From: Bacteroidetes bacterium ADurb.Bin234
GTDB taxonomy: Bacteria > Bacteroidota > Bacteroidia > Bacteroidales > WCHB1-69
Reading direction: 5' to 3'
Length of the DNA stretch: 44,132 bases
NCBI GenBank assembly: GCA_002069895.1
Contig: MWCE01000258.1
Location: forward strand, 1 to 44,132
The notes beneath the pieces are model-generated. The model was not told the origin of the DNA. It was given only the letters and a program-made list of their open reading frames with translations, and searched no databases. Shown here piece by piece: positions 7,315 to 38,639 of the stretch (its first letter is position 1; the number at the start of each line of letters is the position of its first letter). A program made the position numbers and the translations under genes.

Positions 7315-7524
7315 CATTTTTTTTTAATATGACAATTCTTATGAAATGGTATTGATGATTTTTATAATTTTAAAAATGCACTATACTTAAAATATGAATT
7401 ACTCTAAAGGGTTGAATATAATATAGATAATGCCAGTAATCTAAAAAGCTGAATCATATTCTTTGTTTGGTATGTCACTTTGCGGTTATTATTTTTTTTC
7501 ACATATTTGATTGGTGGATGAAAC

Positions 7525-7557
7525 AAGCTTGTCTCAAAAATTTACAGCGCAGTAAAT
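7525..7557. repeat. 33-bp direct repeat, copy 1
   Basis: This 33-bp unit begins AAGCTTGTCTCAAAAATTTA and ends in an 18-bp dyad that is perfect except for one base (GCGCAG instead of GCGCTG). Copy 2 lies 43 bp downstream and differs at only that base. The first copy is preceded by AC, so it also forms the palindrome ACAAGCTTGT. Confidence 0.85.
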
Positions 7558-7567
7558 ATCACGAAAG

Positions 7568-7600
7568 AAGCTTGTCTCAAAAATTTACAGCGCTGTAAAT
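7568..7600. repeat. 33-bp direct repeat, copy 2
   Basis: Identical to copy 1 except at one base. Its last 18 bases (7583-7600), ATTTACAGCGCTGTAAAT, are a perfect palindrome. Tandem dyads at this spacing look like either a regulator operator pair or remnants of a small palindromic repeat element. Confidence 0.85.
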
Positions 7601-7673
7601 TATAGGGAATAAATTTGTTATAAACTGCAATCAAATTTCATTTATTTTTTAATGTAATTTGATTAAATCATGC

Positions 7674-24678: not shown

Positions 24679-24951
24679 ACTTTTATCACGATTACACTAT
24701 TCCTTTCTTTTCTTTCTGAATCAGTAAGCCATTACAAATTAAATTATTTTCGTGCAACATTGACAACTGATCCGTGCAAAATCGGATATATTCCGATGCT
24801 TATGCGTTTATAACAGGTGCATCAAATGAATCGTTTAGAAAAAAAAGAATACATCCTCATTTCTTAAACTCGAACGCCACCTTATAATTAAAAGCAAAAG
24901 TTTGAAAAAAATTTAATGAGTGGTGTTGGATAAAAACACCTTTATAATTTT

Positions 24952-25068
24952 GTAAGGCAGAAGTTCTTGAAAACGAAAAAAGGAGTTTTACAGGGTTTTA
25001 TATCAAGGAACGCGAAGGTTCAAATTCGTAAAATTAGTAATTGTTTTTTCTCCGCTTCTTTTTAAAAC
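24952..25068 (+). repeat. Repeat core copy A, left part
   Basis: This stretch matches the minus strand of 38221-38338 with five substitutions and one single-base deletion over 118 positions. It ends at TTAAAAC, after which the match breaks off and resumes at 25498. The missing T at about 25060 would break the reading frame that is open in copy B. Confidence 0.85.
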
Positions 25069-25490
25069 CACATTATGCATTAGGATTTCTTCGAGAATGC
25101 ATTATCCGGTTTCAATGTTTTAGCAATCTATGTATGATAAAAATACAGTTTTATTTATCATAATATCAACTACATACAGACCGCTGCGGACGACCCCTCT
25201 GTGACAAGCTTGCGACAGAAAATGACAAGCTTGTGATGAGTGCGTGACAAGGCAGAGACTATCGCGTGAGAAGCTTCTCACAAAAGCATGGCAAGCTTGC
25301 CATTTTTCACGGGAAGCTTGTCACAAGGGGGGTGTCCGCTGCGGAAATACATTTGCAAATATATCATATACTGCAATATATAAACATTGATTTTTACTTT
25401 CATTTTATGTTAGTAATTTGCTGAATTTTAAGGAATTTGAACAAAAGGGATCCTATATGCCTTAAATACTTTTTTATTGCGGAATCCGGA
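25069..25490. mobile_element. 422-bp insert within repeat copy A, flanked by 7-bp direct repeats
   Basis: Copy B has one TTAAAAC at this point; copy A has two (25062-25068 and 25491-25497) with 422 bp between them. This is what an insertion with a 7-bp target duplication would leave. No transposase frame fits. The ends are not clear terminal inverted repeats, though GCATTAGGAT near the left and a related inverted stretch near 25450-25463 are weakly alike. Inside are a 9-bp stem (25133-25141 with 25154-25162) and the palindrome cluster. A non-autonomous element is the best guess; deletion from copy B is the alternative. Confidence 0.5.
25181..25344. repeat. Cluster of AAGCTT-centred palindromes inside a 31-bp inverted repeat
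   Basis: Arms at 25181-25211 and 25314-25344 are complementary at 26 of 31 positions and begin CCGCTGCGGAC. Within 114 bp there are five AAGCTT sites (25206, 25227, 25271, 25293 and 25314). Two of them sit in perfect 16-bp palindromes: GTGAGAAGCTTCTCAC at 25266-25281 and ATGGCAAGCTTGCCAT at 25288-25303. The segment is far more GC-rich than its surroundings and would fold into a branched hairpin in RNA or single-stranded DNA. Confidence 0.85.
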
Positions 25491-25497
25491 TTAAAAC

Positions 25498-25700
25498 ATA
25501 ATCTTTTTAAAATGCTTTTATTCCTTCCCTTTTTCTTAAATTAATAAAAAAACGGGGGGGGATGTTTTTCTCCTGTTTTAGTTTAATTTTATTTCCGATT
25601 TCCTTCATTATCCACAAGGCAAATTTGGAAGGAACAGAAAATATAAAATGGGAATCTACCTTTGCAGATGCAAATCTTATAGCACCTCAAAAAAGATTAA
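25498..25700 (+). repeat. Repeat core copy A, right part
   Basis: Aligned with the minus strand of 38014-38220, it shares the TGCTTTTATTCCTTCCCTTT block, a G-run, the TTTCTCCTGTTT block and the end TTTGCAGATGCAAATCTT followed by a TAGCACCT-like tail. Identity is clearly lower than in the left part and there are several indels. TACCTTTG at 25657-25664 has the form of a -7 box. Confidence 0.75.
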
Positions 25701-25742
25701 ATCAAAAAAATATTAAAATTCACAATCTATAAAAATTTTGTT

Positions 25743-31575: not shown

Positions 31576-31689
31576 TTGCATAATATATCTTACTTTTTGT
31601 TAATTATAAAAACGTAGTAAAAGACAAACTCAATTATTTTAATAAAAAAACAAAGAATCAATCATACTTATGATCAATTCTTTGTGATG

Positions 31690-37942: not shown

Positions 37943-38013
37943 CTATCTGTGATATTTTTACGTTTATTGTAACGATATAGATTAAATTATTATTGTATGC
38001 CATTATTATCTGG

Positions 38014-38338
38014 TTAAATCTTTTTTAAGGTGCTAAAAGATTTGCATCTGCAAATGTATATTTCCATTTTTATGTTTTTTCTTCTAAATTGACTTGTGAA
38101 TAGTGAAGGAAATCGGAAATAAAATTAAACTGAAACAGGAGAAAAACACCCCCCCATCCCCACGTTTTTTTATTACTTTTAAGAAAAAGGGAAGGAATAA
38201 AAGCATTAAAAAAAAATTATGTTTTAAAAAAGAAGCGGAGAAAAAACAATTACTAATTTTACGGATTTGAACCTTTGCGTTCTTTGATATAAAACCCTGT
38301 AAAACTCCATTTTTCGTTTTCAAGAATTTCTGCCTTAC
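38014..38338 (-). repeat. Repeat core copy B (uninterrupted)
   Basis: Read on the minus strand, this is the uninterrupted form of the core at 24952-25700. Positions 38221-38338 match copy A at about 95 percent; the rest matches less closely. It ends with TACATTTG, then a 9-bp stem (AAATCTTTT/AAAAGATTT, 38016-38024 with 38035-38043). Confidence 0.8.
38051..38058 (-). promoter_or_regulatory. Candidate porU -7 box inside the repeat
   Basis: The minus strand reads TACATTTG followed by C. It points towards porU with a leader of about 100 nt that would include the 9-bp hairpin at 38016-38043. The same place in copy A reads TACCTTTG. Confidence 0.5.
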
Positions 38339-38639
38339 TAAATAAAAATTTTGTAACTACAAAATAAAATTTTTATAGTTACTAAATTAGAGATATATTT
38401 TCTTGTTAGGAGGCTAAAACAACAATCAGTTAGAAAAAGCCTATAAAACAACTATTAGATGCAGTAACGAATTAAAATCGGGCATGCTCCGTTGAGCAAA
38501 GTGGTAGGTCCGATTTTCAACGAAAAGATATCTACTATTTCAACAAAAATAATAGCATCTCAAAAAAGATTTAACCGTTATTTATAATTTTTTGTTGAAC
38601 ATTTAGAGAAATTGAATTGTCTATTTAAATAAATGTTTT

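Follow-up and report, generated by a model that had tools for sequence, protein, structure and literature searches.

A probable IS1380-type MITE with hairpin cargo, nested in a left-truncated ISAon1-type MITE of an uncultured Bacteroidales bacterium

In a window of 44,132 nucleotides (the whole stretch of DNA that was analysed) from an uncultured Bacteroidales bacterium, one copy of a dispersed repeat (copy A) is split by an insert that another copy in the same window (copy B) does not have, and the locus raises the question of whether the insert arrived at copy A or was lost from copy B, and to which kind of element it would belong. The source genome amounts to 2.07 Mb in 261 contigs and is 72.6% complete; the repeat copy counts given below were derived from sequence searches of this genome. 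C-numbers (C43, C193 and so on) denote contigs of the window's genome unless a G-number precedes them, G-numbers denote genomes, and L-numbers extracted loci. Our reading, which we hold with high confidence, is that positions 24947-25703 represent a 424-bp IS1380-type MITE that was presumably moved in trans, is nested in a left-truncated ISAon1-type MITE, and has a hairpin as its cargo.

The two occurrences of TTAAAAC given in the first-pass annotation (25062-25068 and 25491-25497, separated by 422 bp) were found in the sequence as described. That annotation had taken the minus strand of 38014-38338 as the uninterrupted form, with about 95% identity to copy A; copy B does read through the break, but the full element is longer (38012-38576), and the identity held to the left of the break (94%) but not to the right of it (86%). 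The parts of the outer repeat were assigned as follows.

24947-25061, plus strand: outer repeat copy A, left of the insertion (94% to copy B; left terminal repeat missing)
25496-25703, plus strand: outer repeat copy A, right of the insertion (86-95% to copy B, C43, C230 and others)
38012-38576, minus strand: copy B, complete outer element without the insert (terminal repeats at 38012 on the plus strand and at 38576 on the minus strand)

When the insert was skipped, copy A could be aligned over its full extent with copy B (88% over 337 columns), C43 (92% over 320 columns), and C230 (88% over 335 columns), and partially with C63 (77% over 219 columns); its two halves matched successive segments of copy B, read on the minus strand. 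The core is uninterrupted at the target in at least four other copies of the same genome (copy B, C43, C230, and C63), and none of these carries the insert. Because the four copies lack the insert and one (copy A) has it, the insert is the derived newcomer.

Further copies of the insert, for which the first-pass annotation had called, were also found. At C193, the first 130 bp of the insert are present with 98% identity in unrelated, non-repeat flanks (preceded by ...AAATTTTAAA), with no trace of the core repeat next to it; the contig stops inside the hairpin described below and thus cuts off the opposite end of this copy. The left end at C193 reads TCCACATTATGCATTAG, and the junction is TTTTAAA followed by TCCACATTATGCATTAGG (also written as TTTTAAA followed by TCCACATT). 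A lone right end (74% identity) is found at C80, where it carries TCCGGATTCCGCATTAG adjoining TTTAA and is followed by TTAAATTG. The copy A locus is the only complete copy of the insert in the assembly. The aligned left ends read (T/A)CCACATTATGCATTAG and the aligned right ends, on the other strand, TCCGGATTCCGCA(T/A)TA(G/A), both adjoining TTAAA. With these ends, the inner element would comprise the insert as first drawn (25069-25490) plus two bases, and its features were assigned as follows.

25067-25490, no strand assigned: inner element, 424-bp non-autonomous IS1380-type MITE (putative; absent from four core copies; IS1380-type ends)
25062-25066, plus strand: left target-site duplication TTAAA (TTAAA also flanks both ends of autonomous ISs)
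25067-25083, plus strand: left terminal inverted repeat ACCACATTATGCATTAG (differs from the IS1380 TIR consensus at 3 of 17 positions)
25474-25490, minus strand: right terminal inverted repeat, TCCGGATTCCGCAATAA in the minus-strand reading (4 of 17 mismatches to the IS1380 TIR)
25491-25495, plus strand: right target-site duplication TTAAA (as on the left, TTAAA also flanks both ends of autonomous ISs)

The duplication at the exact break that had been noted in the first pass is present, but its length is most likely 5 bp (TTAAA) rather than 7 bp by the family evidence, as TTAAA flanks the related ISs, and a 5-bp duplication makes the ends symmetrical and accommodates the C193 copy. The AC after TTAAA would then most likely be a coincidence, the first two bases of the element being equal to the next two bases of the target, and on this reading the right end of a complete C193 copy would be ...GCGGAATCCGGA followed by TTAAA. 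A single insertion event cannot prove 5 bp over 7 bp, and a 7-bp duplication of TTAAAAC is the less likely alternative here: seven identical bases do flank the insert, and on that view its left end is CACATTATG, the border that was originally drawn. That the insert is a non-autonomous element from outside the IS1380 family, with seven truly duplicated bases, nevertheless seems very improbable to us, since the element shared with C193 would have to begin two bases further to the left, TTAAATTG follows the right end at C80, the complete IS1380 relatives examined are mostly flanked by TTAAA or TTTAA, and the ends are symmetrical only under a 5-bp duplication.

The assignment of the 424-bp element to the IS1380 family was approached through its ends. 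A pattern search of the genus for the insert ends yielded small elements with a better-preserved end, CCCAGATTACGCATTAG, among them gene-less relatives with the same ends of 63 bp (C228, in the window's own genome) and of 202 bp (G004:C97, with TTTAA flanks). Among GTDB genomes, 30 stretches contain the exact string TTAAACCCAGATTACGCAWTAGG; with a single exception they are labelled as Bacteroidota taxa, and most of these stretches are gene-less elements of 60-230 bp. The consensus inverted repeat, TTAAA and then CCCAGATTACGCAWTAGG, also bounds two intact ISs of about 1.41 kb, one from Myroides sp. N17-2 (L146) and one from a Bacteroidetes MAG (L147). Each of them carries the repeat at either end, lies between TTAAA sequences, and has one frame (438 and 439 aa), the products of which scored 243 and 259 bits against NF033539 IS1380 (cut-off 180) and 168 and 174 bits against PF13701. 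TTAAA flanks this pair of ISs and the majority of the small relatives that were inspected, and among the complete IS1380 relatives examined the flanks are mostly TTAAA or TTTAA. In the insert, the IS1380 terminal inverted repeats (3 and 4 of 17 mismatches) fall exactly at the two break points, each with TTAAA beside it as in L146, L147, and the relatives; in simulated sequence of the window's composition, the chance of such end matches was 4e-6 (left) and 4.3e-5 (right) per site. The putative membership of the insert in IS1380 is thus one of ends and target site, the ends being diverged.

The IS1380-family transposase is a DDE enzyme related to that of piggyBac. IS1380 has been described as a distant prokaryotic relative of piggyBac, the target duplication of which is TTAA (PMC10140906). 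Compared with the ISs at L146 and L147, the insert shares the terminal repeat sequence, the TTAAA flanks, and an insertion that duplicates the target, but it is 424 bp long instead of 1.41 kb, lacks a transposase, and has a foreign hairpin module as its interior, with no shortened transposase gene and no visible deletion remnant of an IS. From the small IS1380-type MITEs of 63-230 bp (L131, L132, L135, L108, and C228; the others from other Bacteroidota), which are likewise gene-less and have the same ends and target, it differs in its larger size and in carrying a covarying hairpin. No insert copy with a transposase that would bridge the two forms was found in the genus, and neither the inner nor the outer TIR was found in viral contigs. 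A search of the literature for IS1380 MITEs in Bacteroidetes, ISAon1, and HU-linked palindromes returned nothing directly relevant. Separately, an IS1380-type element of about 63-64 bp is present in several near-identical copies in the Bacteroidales MAG JALVJE01 (L138, L133, L136, L137, L140, and L150).

The outer repeat is dispersed, measures about 565 bp when complete, and has no reading frame; compared along its entire length, copy B is 83% identical to C43 and C230. About 230 bp at the left of copy A are missing, the left terminal repeat among them, and the right one is retained.

25680-25703, minus strand: right terminal inverted repeat of outer element copy A (GGTTAAATCTTTTTTTGAGGTGCTA with 3 differences)

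The 25-bp terminal inverted repeat GGTTAAATCTTTTTTTGAGGTGCTA also bounds other elements in the genome and the genus, and 8-bp target duplications were seen at C43 (TATTAATC), C152 (TAGATTTA), G002:C123 (GAAATTAA), and G002:C131 (CTTTTTTT); around copies A and B themselves, no clean 8-bp duplication was evident. Two longer relatives contain a broken frame that resembles the N-terminal protein of ISAon1 but, at 33.6 bits, falls short of the cut-off (55). In G038 (locus L164), a genome of the same family, a near-identical TIR stands at positions 1 and 1516 (2 differences each) and delimits a unit of about 1.5 kb. This unit has a 368-aa frame and encodes an intact ISAon1 N-terminal protein (ISAon1_upstream) that, with 84 bits, exceeds the cut-off of 55. 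Because nearly the same TIR bounds this unit with an ISAon1 protein, the outer repeat was classified as an ISAon1-type MITE: it shares the near-identical 25-bp TIR and the 8-bp duplications with the ISAon1 family (ISL3-like; NF049916 N-terminal protein), but it is about 565 bp long and has no reading frame. The search of the genus for an ISL3-type transposase (PF01610) gave no match, and the ISAon1 N-terminal remnants there were below the cut-off. The IS1595 family, which the 8-bp duplications had suggested for the outer repeat, was dropped in favour of ISAon1, whose proteins lie between the same TIRs. A tRNA-derived core (with GGTTCAAATTCG resembling a T-arm) was also considered and rejected; ARAGORN detected only a tRNA-Leu at 31689, and Rfam gave nothing credible.

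The interior of the inner element contains a long hairpin.

25175-25349, plus strand: covarying 175-nt hairpin of the inner element (palindromic outer arms, C/G clamp, ACAAGCTTGT units)

This hairpin was predicted to fold at -49.9 kcal/mol (z -9.05) with DNA parameters, and the whole insert folded as RNA gave a z of -7.43. For covariation, nine hairpin copies from this genome and G003 were aligned. In this alignment, 30 of 53 pairs were changed on both sides in a compensatory manner, 90.6% of the cells paired in comparison with 72.5% in shuffles, the covariation score was 0.481 in comparison with 0.174 in shuffles (reached by 0 of 500), and slid structures dropped to 34-48% paired; note that these figures are somewhat flattering, as the alignment that was scored had also served to predict the structure and kinship among the copies weakens the shuffle control. 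The doubly changed pairs of the predicted structure are nonetheless numerous. Between the C/G clamps, a length of 137-140 nt is kept across the copies, while the internal words and the outer palindromic arms vary. The window hairpin scored 164.8 bits against the model built from the nine copies, of which it is itself one. Seven related hairpin loci had no match in Rfam at the gathering threshold, and the window had chance-level matches only at a relaxed threshold. Like REP/BIME palindromic repeats, the hairpin is dispersed, intergenic, and hairpin-forming; it differs from them in its length of 175 nt, the invariant C/G clamp, the locus-specific palindromic arms, and the internal words that differ between copies. 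Elsewhere in the window, a tandem pair of 43-bp units with ACAAGCTTGT (7500-7640) gave a weak match of 31 bits to the hairpin model.

The hairpin model had 26 matches in this genome, corresponding to about 20-25 sites, as some matches are one place on both strands or fragments at contig ends. Several sites were found in G003 and weak ones in G022, and there was no match in 96 other genomes. In most copies of this genome the hairpin is preceded, at a distance of 36-41 nt, by a shared leader ATG, and in many of them an HU-like frame starts 67-68 nt after it; in G003, one copy lies directly upstream of an HU_rel gene. In the insert, the leader is altered and the HU-like start is absent. The leader frame was also considered as a conserved protein and rejected: on visual inspection it stays open across the hairpin in several copies and is stopped early in the insert, C60, and C256. 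At C162, an IS1380-type end lies 15 nt from a hairpin; at C93, ISAon1-type ends surround the module, and the C253 hairpin is also inside an ISAon1-type element. Both MITE families thus appear to have carried the module. The number of module copies, far higher than that of the insert, their various flanks, and their occurrence inside ISAon1-type elements (C93 and C253) could be taken to mean that the hairpin itself is the mobile unit, with a route of its own, and merely came to lie between IS1380-like ends. We regard this as very improbable, as the break points, with the duplication, coincide here with the IS1380-type ends, which lie about 110 and 140 bp beyond the hairpin, and the other hairpin copies show the constant leader and the HU-like start with no clean insertion borders.

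The IS1380-type MITE with captured hairpin is retained as the preferred reading. The data show the direction of the insertion, the empty sites, the second copy and the families to which both pairs of ends belong, and they show that an element with IS1380-type ends went into TTAAA within an ISAon1-type MITE; the history around this event may be proposed as follows. The ISAon1-type MITE, left-truncated at this locus, would be the first layer. The IS1380-type MITE (25067-25490) would later have entered TTAAA within it and duplicated 5 bp. Its movement was presumably effected in trans by an IS1380-family transposase recognising the 17-bp inverted ends; we infer mobilisation in trans because the insert has no frame above 53 aa and none that is meaningful, in agreement with the first-pass view that it has no open frame. 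The dispersed hairpin module would have been captured as its interior and have travelled as cargo. Because no IS1380 transposase (PF13701) was found in six genus genomes, the window's own assembly being only 72.6% complete, the inner element is probably stranded and immobile now. The first-pass suggestion of a non-autonomous element inside another repeat is supported, with the two layers now assigned to families; neither of the outcomes that it had named as refuting was seen, since the insert recurs at C193 and other core copies are free of it. Short direct repeats such as TTAAAAC can recombine and excise exactly the DNA between them, so copy B and its like might be deletion products of a core that ancestrally contained the insert, but we give this almost no credence, as at least four core copies are without the insert and only copy A has it, the insert stands alone at C193 in non-core flanks, and its ends match an independent IS family.

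The nesting is a clean filled/empty-site pair, which dates one MITE family after the other and identifies two MITE families in a poorly known Bacteroidales genus. Nested gene-less jumping elements are ordinary in kind, and the hairpin cargo raises the interest somewhat; the wider value lies in this cargo, in which length and pairing are kept while the repeated words swap. We tentatively suggest, as a possibility to which we give somewhat less than even weight, that the hairpins form an undescribed family, consisting of the leader ATG, the clamped 137-140-nt hairpin with co-changing arms and words (ACAAGCTTGT/CCAAGCTTGG type), and the HU-like start, which acts as a regulatory or DNA-structure element, or as a parasite, of HU-like genes and is a cargo of two MITE families. 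The pattern may result either from selection on structure or from mechanical palindrome correction. In the former case, there would be an unknown structured element tied to HU-like genes; in the latter, with correction during replication, the hairpin copies would be a good natural record of that process.

Palindrome arrays of other types were observed in the same surroundings. ISAon1-type elements at L088 and L083 (G002:C123 and G002:C131) and L073 (G000:C152) contain arrays of the GCAAGCCTGCGG and ATTTGTACGCATACAAAT types; hairpin cargo is therefore not unique to the insert. Whether HU_rel genes and hairpin arrays are linked throughout Bacteroidales was also considered, but no such general link is claimed, since clear arrays of repeated palindromes occurred upstream at some loci of G114, a genome from a distant genus of the order, and ordinary terminators or nothing at most others. 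The arrays of palindromic words that do lie directly upstream of HU_rel (TIGR01201) genes, with words of the TTGACGCAATAA, TTTACTAAGCAT, and CAAAGTCCGACTT types, were found in the genus at L175 and L182 (G005:C93 and G002:C116) and L167 (G002:C76), and in G114 at L196, L225, L226, and L228.
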